5,002 nt of DNA from positions 1 through 5,002 of the forward strand of contig JALGZO010000637.1 of the NCBI GenBank assembly GCA_025774865.1. The letters are read 5' to 3'. The DNA comes from a bacterium (lineage in GTDB: Bacteria > ARS69). The notes below the pieces were generated by a model, which worked only from the letters and a program-made list of their open reading frames with translations, did not search any database and was not told where the DNA came from. The position numbers and the translations under genes were made by a program. Position 1 is the first letter of the stretch; the number at the start of each line of letters is the position of its first letter. Of the stretch, positions 1 through 5,002 are shown piece by piece.

Positions 1-1
1 T

Positions 2-760
2 CCTCGACCGTTCGCCGAGACCTGGGGAGACGAGCACGTGACGAAGGATCTCGCCGACGACGACGGGGCGATCATCCTGGCGACACAGGTCACCGATCTC
101 GGAGGCGGCACGTGGCACTACGAGTACGCGCTCTACAACTGGTACAGCGAGCGTGGGGTTCGCTCGTTCGCCGTGCCGGTCGGGGGCGTCAACATCTCGC
201 ACCCCTCGTTCCACGATATCGACCAGGATCCGGGGAACGACTGGGATGTCACCATCGCGGACGGCGCCATCACCTGGTCGACCGACGACTACGCGACGGA
301 TCCGGATGCGCACGCTCTGTTCTTCCAGACTCTGTTCAACTTCCGATTCGACGCCGACCAGGCGCCCACGGACGGGGCCGTGGCGCTCGGTATCTTCAAG
401 CCCGGGAGCGGGAGCTCGCTCCTCCTCCCCGTCCAGACGCCCACCGCATCCACCGCGATTATCGCGGGACACGACGCGTTCGAGGATTTCACCTTGATGG
501 CGAACGAGCCGAACCCGTTCTCCAGGGACACGGAGGTGACCTTCGCGCTCGGGCGCGGCCGCGACGTGCGTCTCTCCGTGCTCGACGTGTCCGGACGGCT
601 GGTCCAGATCCTGATCCGGGGACCCGCTCCGGCCGGGCTCACCACGGCGCGATGGGACGGGCGCGACACCGCAGGGGTGCGGGTCGCGAGCGGGGTGTAC
701 TTCTTCCGCCTCGAGTCCGGAGATCAGGTCCGAACGGTCAAGGGGACGTTCCTCAGGTAG
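2..760 (+). CDS. Secreted/surface protein, C-terminal part with FlgD-like Ig (sorting-type) domain; 5' end outside the window
   Basis: The reading frame is open to the left edge, so this is the C-terminal part (252 visible residues) of a longer protein. The GTG at 38 is an internal codon that could be mistaken for a start. The first half (about visible residues 36-135) is rich in aromatic and beta-strand-like sequence (YEYALYNWYS, RGVRSFAVPV, FNFRFDADQAP, LGIFKPG). I recall this pattern from repeated extracellular domains in high-GC environmental bacteria but cannot name a family. Residues about 160-252 look like a FlgD/type-IX-style Ig fold: NEPNPF, then RLSVLDVSGRLV, then ARWDGRDTAG, then ASGVYFFRLESG, ending TVKGTFLR. 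Such domains close secreted proteins and may act in surface anchoring or sorting. No catalytic domain is visible. The product is probably exported; the function of the missing N-terminal part is unknown. Confidence 0.85.
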   Translation, partial: PRPFAETWGDEHVTKDLADDDGAIILATQVTDLGGGTWHYEYALYNWYSERGVRSFAVPVGGVNISHPSFHDIDQDPGNDWDVTIADGAITWSTDDYATDPDAHALFFQTLFNFRFDADQAPTDGAVALGIFKPGSGSSLLLPVQTPTASTAIIAGHDAFEDFTLMANEPNPFSRDTEVTFALGRGRDVRLSVLDVSGRLVQILIRGPAPAGLTTARWDGRDTAGVRVASGVYFFRLESGDQVRTVKGTFLR

Positions 761-794
761 CCTTCGAGCCTGTGGGTCTCGAGAACGCCGCGAC

Positions 795-816
795 TCCGGT
801 GACTGGTCCAACCGGA
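795..816 (+). terminator. Possible hairpin after the secreted-protein gene
   Basis: TCCGGT (795-800) pairs with ACCGGA (811-816) around a 10-nt loop, 35 nt beyond the stop at 760 and upstream of the sigma-block promoter. There is no following T-run, so it is at best a weak or Rho-assisted terminator; it could be a chance inverted repeat in GC-rich DNA. Confidence 0.25.
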
Positions 817-833
817 TCACTCGTGCTGCGGCC

Positions 834-865
834 CTGTATCCCTCCGGTGCCTCCTTCCGTCCAAG
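834..865 (+). promoter_or_regulatory. Putative ECF-sigma promoter P1, ahead of the CMD-protein/sigma operon
   Basis: CTGTATCCC (834-842), 12 nt, TTCCGTCCAAG (855-865). The same two blocks at the same spacing occur at 1799-1830, while the spacers agree at only about 1 of 12 positions. Conserved ends around a free spacer is the signature of a promoter. Read as -35 TGTATCC and -10 CGTCC, the gap is 16 nt, and CGTC-type -10 elements are common among ECF sigma factors. Transcription would start near 868-872, giving a leader of about 35-40 nt before the ATG at 907. The likely cognate regulator is the ECF sigma factor encoded at 1187-1768, that is, autoregulation. Confidence 0.75.
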
Positions 866-906
866 TGATCGAAGGTGAGTTCGACCTGAACGGAAGGGAG
901 AGTCCC

Positions 907-1200
907 ATGTCCCATCTCACACCGCAGCAACGTGAGCTCGTGGCCATCGGCGCGTCGCTTGCCAGCAACTGTATTCCCTGCATCCAATTCCACGTCCGAC
1001 AGGCGCGGGAGACCGGCCTGACCGACGAAGTGATCAGAGACGCCGTCGAGGTGGCCGACGCGGTGCGCCAGGTGCCGGCCCGGAAAGTCCGGGAAAGCGC
1101 GTCTGCCGCCCTGGGTCGCGACAGCGGCGACGCCCCGAAATCGAAGGGAACGGCGGGGGCGCCCTGCTGTAGTCCGGGGGGCGCCGATGAGCGAGCGTGA
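907..1200 (+). CDS. AhpD-like / carboxymuconolactone decarboxylase (CMD) family thiol protein with vicinal-Cys tail
   Basis: A 97-residue protein. The start ATG at 907 has a good ribosome site (AGGGAG, 895-900) 6 nt upstream; the frame stays open far upstream only as a shadow of the previous gene. Residues 10-29 hold the AhpD-type active-site pattern: E10, then N-C22-I-P-C25 and H29 (CxxCxxxH). In AhpD-like proteins this cysteine pair does thiol-disulfide or peroxidase-related chemistry. The helical part continues to about residue 70 (VADAVRQVPARKV). A low-complexity tail follows and ends with a vicinal pair, C87-C88 (GAPCCSPGG), which suggests metal/metalloid binding or a second redox centre. 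It is shorter than full AhpD and lacks a ring-cleavage pathway context, so true muconolactone decarboxylation is unlikely. It overlaps the sigma-factor gene by 14 nt, implying coupled translation and a linked role, for example as redox sensor or effector. The partner substrate is unknown. Confidence 0.85.
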   Translation: MSHLTPQQRELVAIGASLASNCIPCIQFHVRQARETGLTDEVIRDAVEVADAVRQVPARKVRESASAALGRDSGDAPKSKGTAGAPCCSPGGADERA

Positions 1201-1768
1201 GCCCCGAGACATGTCGTTCGAAGCAGTCATCGAGGATCTGGGCCCCGCCCTTCGCTCCTACCTGGAGCGAATGGTGGGGGACCCTACGCTCGCCGACGAT
1301 CTCTTCCAAGAGACGTCGATCAAGATCGCCCGGGGGCTCCCGGGATTCGAGGGGCGATCGACGATCAAGACCTGGGCTTTCCAGATCGCCCACCGAGTCT
1401 GCATCGATCACTTTCGCACGAGCAGCAGCAAGCAGACGTTCCTCGAGTTCCTCGAGGAGGATCACGCCGCCTCCGATCTCGAGCACGACGAGGCGATCGT
1501 CATCGACGAGATGAACGACTGCATCCGTGACGTCATCGACTCTCTCCCACCCGACTACCGGACCGCCCTTGTGCTGCACGATCTTCAAGGGCTGACCGCC
1601 GAGGAGATCTCGCGCATCAGCGAGTGCTCACTCGCCACGGTCAAGATCCGCATCCACCGGGCGCGGAAGCGGCTTCGCGACGCCCTCCAGGATCAGTGCC
1701 GCTTCTACCACGATCGCGACCAGGTCCTCCGCTGCGACCGCAAGGGCTCGGACGACTCGAAGGCCTGA
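1187..1768 (+). CDS. ECF-type RNA polymerase sigma factor with two-cysteine C-terminal tail
   Basis: A 193-residue, two-domain sigma factor. Sigma-2 (about 20-80) shows ADDLFQETSIKIARGLPGF and IKTWAFQIAHRVCIDHFR, the core-binding and -10 recognition helices. An acidic linker spans about 85-110. Sigma-4 (about 112-166) starts DSLPPDYRTALVLHDLQGL and carries the helix-turn-helix TAEEISRISECSLATVKIRI plus HRARKRLRDAL. There is no sigma-3, as expected for group 4. The tail after sigma-4 holds C171 and C183 in CRFYHDRDQVLRC, followed by a short polar end; with C72, C112 and C147 this makes five cysteines. The tail may be a redox or metal switch. Start 1187 overlaps the CMD gene and has only a G-run as ribosome site. 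An in-frame ATG at 1211 would remove eight residues and still leave both domains whole. No anti-sigma gene is recognisable beside it. Promoters P1 and P2 are its probable targets. Confidence 0.93.
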   Translation: MSEREPRDMSFEAVIEDLGPALRSYLERMVGDPTLADDLFQETSIKIARGLPGFEGRSTIKTWAFQIAHRVCIDHFRTSSSKQTFLEFLEEDHAASDLEHDEAIVIDEMNDCIRDVIDSLPPDYRTALVLHDLQGLTAEEISRISECSLATVKIRIHRARKRLRDALQDQCRFYHDRDQVLRCDRKGSDDSKA

Positions 1769-1798
1769 GCCTCGCATCCTCAGAAACACCCCTCGAAG

Positions 1799-1830
1799 CT
1801 GTATCCCCTTTCCCCGCGATTCCGTCCAAG
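1799..1830 (+). promoter_or_regulatory. Putative ECF-sigma promoter P2, ahead of the Cys-rich protein/membrane protein operon
   Basis: CTGTATCCC (1799-1807), 12 nt, TTCCGTCCAAG (1820-1830), base-for-base the same two blocks and spacing as P1. It starts 31 nt after the sigma-factor stop. Predicted initiation near 1833-1837 would place the strong ribosome site at the very 5' end of a leader of about 16-20 nt. Its presence between the sigma gene and the next gene argues that 1853-2425 is a separately controlled unit of the same regulon rather than mere read-through. Confidence 0.75.
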
Positions 1831-1836
1831 CGAGTG

Positions 1837-1844
1837 AAAGGAGG
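1837..1844 (+). promoter_or_regulatory. Strong Shine-Dalgarno site for the Cys-rich small protein
   Basis: AAAGGAGG is a near-perfect anti-16S complement, 8 nt before the ATG at 1853. It is the best ribosome site in the window and supports a real, well-translated small gene here. Confidence 0.85.
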
Positions 1845-1852
1845 ATTTCGAC

Positions 1853-2062
1853 ATGGAGACCACAACCTCCCACGGACCCCTGACCCTGACTCTGGCGAAG
1901 GTCTGTCACGGCTGCGGAATCTGCGCCCGTGCCGAACGGAAGCCGCTGTCCCCGTTCGGACGGCTCATGCGTTGGCATCGCGAGTGGTGCCCGGCGTGGG
2001 CCGCGCACTCCAAGGTCCATGGTCCGAAGACGTTCGTGAGCTCGGACCGAGAAGAGAGGTGA
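1853..2062 (+). CDS. Small cysteine-rich protein (CxxCxxC...CP), possible Fe-S or zinc binder
   Basis: A 69-residue soluble protein behind the strongest ribosome site in the window and directly downstream of promoter P2. C18, C21 and C24 form CHGCGIC; a fourth cysteine, C46, sits in a conserved-looking block MRWHREWCPAW (39-49). CxxCxxC plus a distal Cys-Pro recalls the ligand set of a [4Fe-4S] ferredoxin half-motif, but the 21-residue gap and nearby histidines (H19, H42, H52, H56) would also suit zinc. No signal peptide or membrane segment is present, and the C-terminus is charged. I recall similar short proteins with a WCPxW block as uncharacterised, but cannot name a family. Its stop lies 3 nt before the next ATG, so it is translationally linked to the membrane protein. 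A metal- or redox-sensing partner of the sigma factor is one possibility; direct evidence is lacking. Confidence 0.8.
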   Translation: METTTSHGPLTLTLAKVCHGCGICARAERKPLSPFGRLMRWHREWCPAWAAHSKVHGPKTFVSSDREER

Positions 2063-2065
2063 GTC

Positions 2066-2425
2066 ATGCAACGGATGTGCAACATGCCCTGTGGCGGTTT
2101 CTGGACAGGGCGCGAGAACGATGTCGCGCGGAAGATCGACAGCGCAGGATGGGGTCTCTTCTTTCTCTGGGTCGGCGTGTCGCTCCTGCTGGACCTCGGC
2201 TGGGGAGTCGGCCTGCTCGGTGTCGGTATCCTGACGCTCGCGATGCAGGCCGTCCGCCGCGGCTTCGGCCTGGAGCACGAGGGATTCTGGGTTCTCGTAG
2301 GCGGTGCCTTCACGCTGGCCGGGGTCTGGGAGCTCGCTGCGATCGACGTCTCCCTCGCCCCGATTCTCCTCATGGGGTTCGGGGTGGTCGTCCTGGTGTC
2401 GGTGCTTCGGAGGGCGCGGGGCTGA
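2066..2425 (+). CDS. Small four-helix integral membrane protein of unknown function
   Basis: A 119-residue protein starting at ATG 2066, with a purine-rich ribosome site (AGAGAGG, 2053-2059) inside the end of the previous gene. The N-terminal 25 residues are polar and carry C5 and C9 (MCNMPCGG). Four hydrophobic segments follow at about 27-44, 45-63, 72-91 and 92-114, with glycine-rich patterns (GWGLFFLWVGV, GWGVGLLGVGI). The loop between segments 2 and 3 is positive (RRGFGLE) and the C-terminus is RRARG, which suggests both lie in the cytoplasm by the positive-inside rule. It has no anti-sigma zinc motif and no periplasmic sensor domain, so a classical transmembrane anti-sigma role is not supported. 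It is probably co-transcribed with the Cys-rich protein from P2; the two may form a membrane-associated complex. I do not recognise the family. Confidence 0.8.
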   Translation: MQRMCNMPCGGFWTGRENDVARKIDSAGWGLFFLWVGVSLLLDLGWGVGLLGVGILTLAMQAVRRGFGLEHEGFWVLVGGAFTLAGVWELAAIDVSLAPILLMGFGVVVLVSVLRRARG

Positions 2426-2433
2426 GTGAGCCC
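2419..2433 (+). terminator. Weak hairpin over the membrane-protein stop codon
   Basis: GGGCT (2419-2423) pairs with AGCCC (2429-2433) around a 5-nt loop that includes the last two bases of the stop codon. Only 5 bp and no T-run; low support as a terminator. Confidence 0.2.
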
Positions 2434-2482
2434 ACACGAAAACCTCGCCGAGGCGTATCATGTCGCGGGGCGGCGGCACGCG

Positions 2483-2500
2483 GCGCGCCGGTATGCGCGC
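2483..2500 (+). other. G/C hairpin in the region upstream of ferritin
   Basis: GCGCGC (2483-2488) and GCGCGC (2495-2500) can pair around the 6-nt loop CGGTAT. It lies in the 118-nt gap before the ferritin gene and could be a terminator stem for the previous unit, a leader structure or a binding site. There is no T-run. A clear -10/-35 pair and a Fur-box-like AT-rich palindrome were not found in this gap, and the P1/P2 element is absent. Confidence 0.3.
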
Positions 2501-2543
2501 GGCTCCGTCGCCCGAGCAAATCTCAGAACTCCGGGAGTAGAGA

Positions 2544-3026
2544 ATGCTGATAGATCGAAAGATGACCGCTGGACTGAACGCTCAGATCGGCCGCGAGTTT
2601 TCCGCCGCCATGCAGTACGTGAGCATGGCCGCCTGGTTCGCAGCGAAGGGACTCGGAGGCTTCGCGGAATTTTTCCACAAGCAGGCCGCGGAAGAGACCG
2701 AGCACGGCCTGAAGATCGTGAGGTACCTCGGAGACGTCGGGGGGACGGTGGAGATCCCGGAGATCGCACGACCTCGGTCCGACTACGCGACGGTCGAGGA
2801 CGCGCTCCGACACTTCGTCGAGATGGAAGAAGAAGTGACGCGCGCGATCTACGCCCTCGTCGAGCTTGCTCAGTCCGAAAAGGATCACTCGGGCAACCAC
2901 TTCCTGCAGTGGTACGTCGAGGAGCAGCGCGAGGAGGTAACGAGCGCTCGGACTCTGCTGGAGAAGGCGCAGCGCTTCGGCGAGGAGCGGATGCTCCTCC
3001 TGGACGGGGCGCTCGGTAGCGACTGA
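2544..3026 (+). CDS. Ferritin (non-haem, FtnA-like iron storage protein)
   Basis: A 160-residue cytoplasmic protein, the normal length for a bacterial ferritin. It should assemble into a 24-subunit shell that oxidises Fe(II) and stores Fe(III). The four-helix-bundle ferroxidase ligands can be lined up with E. coli FtnA, each shifted by one: E18 (REFSA), E51 and H54 (AEETEHG), E95 (VEMEEEV), Q128 and E131 (FLQWYVEEQREEV). E130 could serve the third iron site. The block FLQWYV-EQ is almost the same as in FtnA. No haem-ligand methionine of bacterioferritin type is evident at the position after helix A, so ferritin is preferred over Bfr. Start ATG 2544 has GGGAG (2533-2537) 6 nt upstream. It sits 118 nt behind the sigma-controlled membrane gene and 41 nt before a lipoprotein gene. 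Its position hints at an iron/oxidative-stress neighbourhood, but no shared promoter element is seen. Confidence 0.95.
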   Translation: MLIDRKMTAGLNAQIGREFSAAMQYVSMAAWFAAKGLGGFAEFFHKQAAEETEHGLKIVRYLGDVGGTVEIPEIARPRSDYATVEDALRHFVEMEEEVTRAIYALVELAQSEKDHSGNHFLQWYVEEQREEVTSARTLLEKAQRFGEERMLLLDGALGSD

Positions 3027-3058
3027 CGGGCTCGCCAGCATCGGTGAGCTCTCATTGC

Positions 3059-3064
3059 GAGGAG
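3059..3064 (+). promoter_or_regulatory. Ribosome site that decides the lipoprotein start
   Basis: GAGGAG lies just before GTG 3068, while the more upstream in-frame GTG at 3044 has no comparable site. Part of it can pair in a GAGCTC/GAGCTC stem (3046-3051 with 3062-3067), which might temper translation. Confidence 0.5.
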
Positions 3065-3067
3065 CTC

Positions 3068-3565
3068 GTGCGCGCAGCGATAGCGGTACTCGTTCTGTTG
3101 TCGCTGTCAGGTTGCGGTCGATCGGACGGCGACGAAGCCAACGAACCCGGGGCGGTGAATCCCCCGAGTCGTGAATCGCTCGATTTGGTCTTGGCGCTCG
3201 TTCCAGACACATCCGTCGTCCGCGTGGAGAGCTCAGAGGGGTTGGTCGAGGACCATCTGACGGGTCGCCGATATCCTGGAGTCCAGGTCAAGATCACCGG
3301 GACCGCGAGTGCATTCGGAGACGAATCACTCGACGCGATCATCCGGCGGGAGCTGGTCGGGCGAGGCTGGGAAGAGGACCTTCGATACGCTGCAGATGGC
3401 CCTGATGGCAGCGCCTTCGCATTGCGGCACGGAGCATCACTGTGGCTCTTTCGAGCAGCATGGGACGGAGGTGACGACGCCGACCCGGTATACGTCCCCA
3501 CGGACCGTTACGAGATGACCGTGGTCTGCATGAGTGTGCCGACCGAAGAACCCGGGGGGCAATGA
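3068..3565 (+). CDS. Small lipoprotein of unknown function
   Basis: With GTG 3068 as start the product has 165 residues and opens with a compact lipoprotein signal peptide: a positive R2, hydrophobic AAIAVLVLLSL, and lipobox L13-S-G-C16, giving a mature N-terminal lipidated cysteine followed by GRSDGDE. The longer form from GTG 3044 would place two glutamates and an extra cysteine ahead of the hydrophobic core, which is unlike a signal peptide and lacks a ribosome site. The mature part is acidic with alternating beta-like stretches (VQVKITGTASAFG, IIRRELVGRGWEEDLRYAADG, FALRHGASLWLFRAAW) and ends MTVVCMSVPTEEPGGQ. I see no catalytic motif and do not recognise a family. It follows ferritin by 41 nt and may be co-transcribed with it. 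An envelope location is inferred from the lipobox; the role is unknown. Confidence 0.75.
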   Translation: MRAAIAVLVLLSLSGCGRSDGDEANEPGAVNPPSRESLDLVLALVPDTSVVRVESSEGLVEDHLTGRRYPGVQVKITGTASAFGDESLDAIIRRELVGRGWEEDLRYAADGPDGSAFALRHGASLWLFRAAWDGGDDADPVYVPTDRYEMTVVCMSVPTEEPGGQ

Positions 3566-3571
3566 CCGTCG

Positions 3572-3599
3572 CGCCCGCCGTCCAGAAGCCGGGCGGGCG
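3572..3599 (+). terminator. GC-rich hairpin after the lipoprotein gene
   Basis: CGCCCGCC (3572-3579) pairs perfectly with GGCGGGCG (3592-3599) around a 12-nt loop, starting 6 nt after the lipoprotein stop. It is the strongest stem in the window but has no T-run, so it fits a terminator of the GC-rich, U-poor kind. It would separate the lipoprotein transcript from the methyltransferase gene. Confidence 0.45.
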
Positions 3600-3633
3600 G
3601 TGACAGGCAGAGCCGGCCGGCGGTCGGTTGGCG

Positions 3634-3639
3634 TATTCT
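3634..3639 (+). promoter_or_regulatory. Candidate -10 element for a leaderless methyltransferase transcript
   Basis: TATTCT matches the TANNNT form of a housekeeping -10 box. Its last base lies 7 nt before the A of ATG 3646, and no ribosome site precedes that ATG. Initiation at the start codon itself (leaderless mRNA) would fit. No convincing -35 was found at 16-18 nt. Confidence 0.4.
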
Positions 3640-3645
3640 CCACGC

Positions 3646-4779
3646 ATGGTCGAACTGACGGCTATTGTCAGCTGCCCCCACGGCGAGGAGTGCGGAGCCT
3701 GCGCGTTCCTCGGCGAGAGCTATCGGGATCAACTCGATCGCAAGCGCGGCATCCTCGGCCGGGCCCTGGGGCGGTACGACCGGCTTCACGACGCGCAGCT
3801 GCTGCCCTGCCTGCCGTCGCCTCACGTGGCCGGTTACCGCAACCGCGCGAAGCTGGCCGTGGGCCTGTCGCGGCACGCCCGCGACGCGCGGGTGGGCTAC
3901 TTCCGGGCCGGCACGCGAGAGATCGTTGACGCACCCGAATGCCGGGTGCTCGTTCCCGAACTGGCCGACACGGCCCGTCGCGTGCGCGGCTTCATCGGCC
4001 GCATGCGTAGCCCGCCGCGCGAGCTGCGCCATCTCGACCTGCGCTGCGGCAGCGATCCCACGCGACAACATCTGACCCTCGTCTTCCGGGCGACCGAGTG
4101 TCCGACCTTTCCGCTGGACGCGCTGCGCAGAAGCTGCCCGCGGGTCGATGGCATCTCGGTGAACCTGAATCCGAGTGCCGGACCCCAGGTGATTCGCGGC
4201 GCCGTGACACCTCTGTGGGGGGAGCGCGAGGTCTGGGTCGATCACGCCGGCTACCGATTGCGCGTTTCCCCCGCGGCGTTCTTCCAGGTCAACTTGGCGC
4301 TGCTGCCGTCGATCCACCGGCAGATGTCCGAGTTCCTGGCCGACGGCAGTGTGCTGGCCGACCTCTACGCCGGAGTCGGGACCCACGGGCTGGCGCTGCG
4401 AAAGCAGTTCCGTAGGGTGCTGTTCATCGAGGGGAGCCGCAGCGCGGCGGCCGACCTGAAATCGACGATCCGCCGCCACGAGGTCGACGACGTCGACGTC
4501 GCCGCGACATCCGTGGAGCGTTCGCTGGGTCGCCTGCGCGACGCGTGCCCGGACGCCGTGGTACTCAATCCGTCTCGCGCCGGGGCGGACGAGTCGGTCC
4601 TGCAGGCGATCGCGGATTCCCCCGCGACGAGGATCGCGTACCTGTCGTGCGACCCGACGACGCTCTCCCGCGACCTGGATCTTCTTCAGAGCAAGAAGTT
4701 GAAAACATCGATTGTGCAGCCCATCGATATGATGCCGCAGACCCGGCAGGTCGAGGCCCTCGCTTTCCTGCGACGCTGA
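3646..4779 (+). CDS. TrmA/RlmC/RlmD-family SAM-dependent RNA uridine-5-methyltransferase (Fe-S type)
   Basis: A 377-residue enzyme that should transfer a methyl group from SAM to C5 of a uridine in rRNA or tRNA. The N-terminus carries C10, C16 and C19 (CPHGEECGAC, then YRDQLDRK), which with C99 (APEC) give the four-cysteine [4Fe-4S] set of RlmC/RlmD. The central part has GYRNRAKLAVG (63-73) and FFQVN (212-216). The SAM-binding loop is DLYAGVGTHGL (239-249), with A where many relatives have C. NPSRAG (308-313) replaces the usual DPPR-G and is closer to the NPPR form of RlmC. The catalytic nucleophile is C335 in YLSCDPTTLSRDL, and the general base is E370 in MPQTRQVEALAFL. There is no TRAM domain, and the length is close to RlmC (about 375) rather than RlmD. 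The target base cannot be told from sequence alone. ATG 3646 is preferred to TTG 3628, since family homology starts just after it. It lies alone, 80 nt after the lipoprotein. Confidence 0.93.
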   Translation: MVELTAIVSCPHGEECGACAFLGESYRDQLDRKRGILGRALGRYDRLHDAQLLPCLPSPHVAGYRNRAKLAVGLSRHARDARVGYFRAGTREIVDAPECRVLVPELADTARRVRGFIGRMRSPPRELRHLDLRCGSDPTRQHLTLVFRATECPTFPLDALRRSCPRVDGISVNLNPSAGPQVIRGAVTPLWGEREVWVDHAGYRLRVSPAAFFQVNLALLPSIHRQMSEFLADGSVLADLYAGVGTHGLALRKQFRRVLFIEGSRSAAADLKSTIRRHEVDDVDVAATSVERSLGRLRDACPDAVVLNPSRAGADESVLQAIADSPATRIAYLSCDPTTLSRDLDLLQSKKLKTSIVQPIDMMPQTRQVEALAFLRR

Positions 4780-4808
4780 CGTCGCACTCTCACTTGCTGG
4801 CTTCTCTG

Positions 4809-4839
4809 ATCCGGTCCCGGCTCGGGGACACGACCGGAT
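4809..4839 (+). terminator. Hairpin after the methyltransferase gene
   Basis: ATCCGGTC (4809-4816) pairs perfectly with GACCGGAT (4832-4839) around a 15-nt GC-rich loop, 29 nt past the stop. An alternative inner stem GTCCC/GGGAC (4814-4818 with 4825-4829) competes with it. There is no T-run; a terminator of the GC-rich type is plausible. Confidence 0.4.
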
Positions 4840-5002
4840 GCCCGAGTCCTGCGGGTCGGCGACGGTTGTCGGCTAAAGAACTTGACCGTAAGGTCCGAAA
4901 TCATCGAGGGTCTCGCTAACCCCGGTCTGGTGTTACGACCCGTGGCTCAAAGCACGCTGGCGGTGCCCGCCGAAGCTCGACCCCATCCCGTCCACCCCCT
5001 GA
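4840..5002 (+). other. Non-coding tail with a run of potential RNA hairpins
   Basis: No gene is supported here on either strand: the open stretches are short and lack starts or ribosome sites. Four consecutive stems can be drawn. GACC/GGTC closes a GTAA (GNRA-type) loop at 4884-4895. GGGTC/GACCC (4908-4912 with 4937-4941) encloses TAAC/GTTA (4917-4920 with 4932-4935). GCT/AGC lies at 4945-4953. GGCGG/CCGCC closes a 3-nt loop at 4959-4971. This could be a leader or a small RNA, or chance pairing in GC-rich DNA. A minus-strand frame is open from the right edge to a stop at 4916-4918, so the 3' end of a gene coming from the right cannot be excluded. Confidence 0.25.

Follow-up and report, generated by a model that had tools for sequence, protein, structure and literature searches.

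An element in two copies, very probably a promoter for the ECF sigma factor whose gene they flank, recurs beside related sigma genes in other phyla

ECF41 comprises extracytoplasmic function (ECF) sigma factors with COE/CMD target genes, a TGTCACA-N16-CGTC promoter and few or no targets outside their own locus (PMC3426412), and is thus a precedent for a CMD-linked sigma factor with a nearly private promoter. Precedents for sensing through C-terminal cysteines without an anti-sigma factor are CorE and CorE2 of Myxococcus xanthus (formerly ECF44, now ECF238), whose C-terminal cysteines, in a Cys-rich domain on which the metal response depends, are the sensor (PMC3107203, PMC8999054), and OrbS of Burkholderia cenocepacia (ECF243), where a short C-terminal cysteine tail is an on-board metal sensor (PMC9023288). 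Here, we analysed a 5,002-nt stretch of a bacterial genome of the lineage ARS69 (contig JALGZO010000637.1, positions 1 to 5,002; the window), in which two copies of one bipartite element precede two operons, the first of which encodes an ECF sigma factor. We propose that the elements are very probably promoters for this sigma factor, which would place it under positive autoregulation. The features concerned are as follows.

834-865, plus strand: predicted promoter element, copy 1 (-35 TGTATCC at 835-841, 16-nt spacer, -10 CGTC at 858-861)
907-1200, plus strand: CMD/AhpD-like protein of 97 aa with a CxxC motif and a C-terminal CC, operon 1 gene 1 (PF02627, E = 1.6e-14)
1187-1768, plus strand: ECF sigma factor of 193 aa with C112, C171 and C183 (PF04542, PF08281)
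1799-1830, plus strand: predicted promoter element, copy 2 (-35 TGTATCC at 1800-1806, 16-nt spacer, -10 CGTC at 1823-1826)
1853-2062, plus strand: CX2C, a Cys-rich protein of 69 aa, operon 2 gene 1
2066-2425, plus strand: hydrophobic, probable membrane protein of 119 aa, operon 2 gene 2

A sequence-only reading of the window had described these two copies of CTGTATCCC-N12-TTCCGTCCAAG, and they are found exactly there, identical at 20/20 block positions across an equal 12-nt gap. The ECF geometry that it proposed (TGTATCC, 16 nt, CGTC) holds at both copies, and the divergence that it noted between the 12-nt spacers was confirmed, as these match at 1/12 positions. Copy 1 lies 41 nt ahead of the CMD start codon and copy 2 lies 22 nt ahead of that of CX2C. 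The CMD and sigma genes overlap by 14 nt. Among 200 dinucleotide shuffles there were zero matches to the element, even at ≤3 mismatches. No third copy was found at ≤3 mismatches in the whole assembly (4.72 Mb in 785 contigs, 92.65% complete), where a reversed-pattern control also gave 0. Ordinary sigma-70 promoters were sought across 740-2560 and none was found.

The likeness of the two copies runs about 8 nt beyond the -10 block (TTCCGTCCAAGTGATCGAA and TTCCGTCCAAGCGAGTGAA, 84% over 19 nt). This extended likeness, at 855-873 and 1820-1838, has the pattern GAxxGAA, which recurs at a second locus of the phylum (L009, below) and could mark a conserved stretch at the start of the transcript. Its reach slightly downstream of the blocks would also suit a reading without any promoter role, as an untranslated or RNA element that was duplicated or as a recent sequence duplication. 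We find this hardly credible: the spacers match too poorly for a recent duplicate, a search of the window against Rfam gave no match, and in other phyla the blocks alone are conserved.

The window's phylum was sampled with five genomes, phylum membership here and below being the grouping of the genome collection. One of them, G002, belongs to another genus (isolate M3-44_Bin_119, contig JALGZR010000109.1) and carries the same genes in equal order at locus L009, with identities to the window of 84% for the sigma factor, 66% for CMD, 88% for CX2C and 72% for the membrane protein. Its elements, at 3557-3588 and 4567-4598, keep the spacing with 1 mismatch each. In ungapped comparison with the window, the blocks match at 19/20 and 19/20 positions and the spacers at 8/12 and 6/12, while the 60 bases upstream of the elements match at only 18/60 and 26/60. 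Conservation of the blocks at orthologous loci was the test by which the sequence-only reading could have been refuted, and the outcome favours that reading, as L009 retains the two blocks at each of the two sites.

Outside the phylum, a CX2C profile search identified a homologue in genome G247. In that genome, the genes for CX2C and for a weak homologue of the membrane protein (E 0.002) are divergent from a gene for a sigma factor with 44% identity to that of the window and the same Cys-containing tail, and CTGTATCC-N16-CGTCTATA precedes the CX2C/membrane-protein operon. Sigma profiles further identified G393 and G387, from the phylum of G247, as well as G061, G141, G067 and G198. These seven loci were searched for TGTATCC-N15/16-CGTC at distances of up to 600 bp from the sigma gene, with 79 ECF loci and 420 shuffles as controls. 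The motif was present at ≤1 mismatch in 6/7 family loci, two of them exact, compared to 0/79 control loci (Fisher p about 1.5e-8) and 9/420 shuffles, none of which was exact. The control loci are more distant ECF relatives (L010-L088), with neither the cysteine tail nor the motif. The consensus (W in the -35, spacer of 15/16) was widened after some of the seven loci had been viewed, so only two later-found loci from the phylum of G067 (G402 and G208) form a fully fresh test; the seven-locus count itself scored the window's own TGTATCC...CGTC. Both fresh loci carry the motif (2/2). Sixteen aligned copies yield TGTAWCC-N15/16-CGTC(T/C)A. All of them (16/16) share GTA, CGTC and the leading C of the -35 CC, and the spacer is 15 or 16.

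Because the same signal adjoins relatives of the sigma factor in other phyla, the element is very probably recognised by the sigma factor. The locus is most likely a local ECF module with autoregulation: through copy 1, the sigma factor would act on CMD and on its own gene, and through copy 2 on the small Cys-rich protein CX2C and the membrane protein. That the element is the sigma factor's own motif in a two-operon autoregulated module, as first read from the window, gains strong support from L009 and from the family and fresh loci together. Still, linkage by itself is no proof of recognition by the linked sigma factor, and a separate transcription factor, or a sigma factor encoded elsewhere, might bind the blocks, with the linked sigma gene merely one of its targets. 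This seems highly unlikely, as the asymmetric site contains no inverted repeat, its spacing is fixed and ECF-like, and the element tracks the sigma family across phyla and is missing from the 79 other ECF loci. Within the phylum, the window genome has two exact cores (TGTATCC-N16-CGTCC) and G002 has three (two orthologous sites, and one elsewhere on the other strand), but there are none in the three genomes in which no sigma homologue was detected.

We then considered which genes stand behind the motif copies. CMD follows the motif in the window, L009, G061, G141 and G402; in G402, the copy lies right past the sigma stop codon, before CMD and a multihaem protein. CX2C follows it in the window, L009 and G387. 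In G067 and G208, the motif precedes a small gene just upstream of sigma that encodes a Cys-rich CCG protein, and the sigma gene itself. The G393 copy precedes a SHOCT-like membrane protein, itself upstream of an ArsR-like gene, and that of G198 a cytochrome c554-like protein, with a second, weaker copy before sigma. The G208 locus (L146:1103-1167) has divergent copies, one facing the CCG small protein and sigma, the other an ArsM-like gene.

Genome-wide, the exact pattern TGTAWCC-N16-CGTCYA had 8 sites in nine family genomes, six of them at sigma loci, and its reversed control had 0. An exact match in G141 (contig C37) lies within the reading frame of a TPR protein, and we therefore take it as chance. 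An unlinked, exact copy in G247 (L143; G247:C1:858305-858333, minus strand) is followed 45 nt on by the gene for a Cys-rich CCG-type protein. Downstream of this protein is an arsenite methyltransferase, ArsM (352 bits, cut-off 263), with an ArsR-like gene near. The motif had been offered as a handle on the rest of the regulon. In other genomes it does predict targets, having led to this unlinked G247 site before ArsM genes, but in the window genome no wider regulon was found, as the extra sites are near control level: sites at ≤1 mismatch, with the exact ones counted in, number 8 in the window genome (G000) and 6 in G002, against 4 and 6 for the reversed control. We therefore claim no further member there, and the detectable regulon in the window genome is the two operons only.

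The sigma factor itself has two domains, sigma2 (PF04542 at 15-79) and sigma4 (PF08281 at 111-163), and its best fold matches are ECF sigma structures. Beyond sigma4 is a short Cys-bearing tail of about 30 residues, modelled as a hairpin (171-175/181-185, mean pLDDT 74). C112, C171 and C183 are the sole cysteines invariant in the eight-member family alignment; two of them sit in the tail, and the linker (residues 80-111) has none. A co-transcribed anti-sigma factor is a hallmark of canonical ECF members. No anti-sigma domain was recognised in the window proteins, two of which, CX2C and the membrane protein, are without any family match (for CX2C, both Pfam and NCBIfam were searched).

How does this compare with the described systems? 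Like ECF41, the window has a CMD-type gene beside sigma, and the ECF41 promoter is close to TGTATCC-N16-CGTC in layout, with a 15-16-nt spacer and a CGTC -10. Unlike ECF41, the 193-aa sigma factor has no SnoaL-like C-terminal extension, the -35 is TGTATCC instead of TGTCACA, and relatives in the family have additional Cys-rich and ArsM targets. With CorE and CorE2 it shares C-terminal cysteines, here invariant in the family, and the lack of a recognised anti-sigma factor, but the -35 search in that system was built on AAC. The short Cys-containing C-terminal tail is also that of OrbS, where four clustered cysteines, Fe(II) and siderophore targets contrast with the three-Cys pattern and CMD/Cys-rich targets of the window family. 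The top NCBIfam models are those of SigZ (TIGR02959 and NF007215), at 120.7 and 126 bits against cut-offs of 168.65 and 212, which the window sigma factor does not reach. The family may already be numbered within the 157-group ECF classification. A literature search returned only unrelated papers, and a promoter motif or targets for this family were not found in it. Our analysis supplies this family, present in lineages without genetics, with a promoter motif and a set of likely targets.

As no anti-sigma gene was recognised and C112, C171 and C183 are the only cysteines kept family-wide, we tentatively suggest on-board sensing, with the sigma factor responding to a thiol-reactive signal through these cysteines. 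The presence of ArsM and Cys-rich proteins among the targets points to a signal that is thiol-reactive or arsenic-like, and the target genes may handle reactive or arsenic-like chemicals. In such a scheme, an As(III)-like metalloid, a soft metal or an oxidant would act on C112, C171 and C183 and change sigma activity, and the AhpD-like and Cys-rich products, with ArsM in relatives, would relieve the stress. The association of these targets with three invariant cysteines makes direct sensing testable.

The chief alternative to on-board sensing is that a partner protein, and not the sigma factor's own cysteines, does the sensing. In its favour, CMD overlaps sigma in the window and adjoins it in G061, G141 and G402, and the membrane protein occurs in the window, in L009 and, weakly, in G247. 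However, in the stretches searched, no CMD match was present at G247, G067 and G198 and no membrane-protein match at G061, G141 and G198, and the three cysteines are invariant. Moreover, the COE proteins of ECF41 showed no part in signal transduction (PMC3426412). We regard a sensing partner as rather unlikely.

Several points weigh against our overall reading of an autoregulated module with an on-board sensor. An AAC in the -35 is a hallmark of early-studied ECF members (PMC8103513), and the window has ATCC there, with TGTAACC in 4/16 aligned copies; later ECF classifications have dropped the AAC requirement. The G393 copy has 2 mismatches and is no better than many controls. The control loci belong to other species, with a base composition that is not matched to the family loci. 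Lastly, the signal and sensing step has direct support from residue conservation only.

At the very codon that corresponds to the invariant C112, the sigma gene of G387 (L116:1468-2085, minus strand) has TGA in frame. The G387 genome carries a tRNA-Sec gene, and a stem-loop 3' of the TGA was no more stable than its shuffles. This TGA is possibly a selenocysteine codon, a sequencing error or the mark of a broken gene. At its widest, the proposal would be a cross-phylum ECF family in which the sigma factor itself uses C112, C171 and C183 to sense a ligand that binds thiols, for example As(III). The family would control a regulon of its own, marked by TGTAWCC-N15/16-CGTC and made up of AhpD-like, Cys-rich and ArsM products, and would have at least one member, in G387, with selenocysteine in place of C112. 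We hold this full combination to be doubtful.

Small proteins of the CX2C type (CHxCxxC...RWHRxWCPAW) occur in the window, L096, L116 and L097-L104. The strong homologues in G247 and G387 both lie behind the same motif. Around eight weaker relatives in eight other genomes (L106-L113), stretches of 9-16 kb contained no sigma homologue. In a plasmid search, there were no CX2C homologues and only distant ECFs.

The module is flanked in the window by two further features.

2-760, plus strand: protein fragment with a FlgD-Ig / T9SS-type C-terminus
2544-3026, plus strand: non-haem ferritin, beginning 118 nt past operon 2

The ferritin was considered as a member of the module and left out, because the 8.5-kb L009 locus has no homologue of it. 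Past the ferritin, the plus strand encodes a putative lipoprotein and then an RlmD-like methyltransferase.
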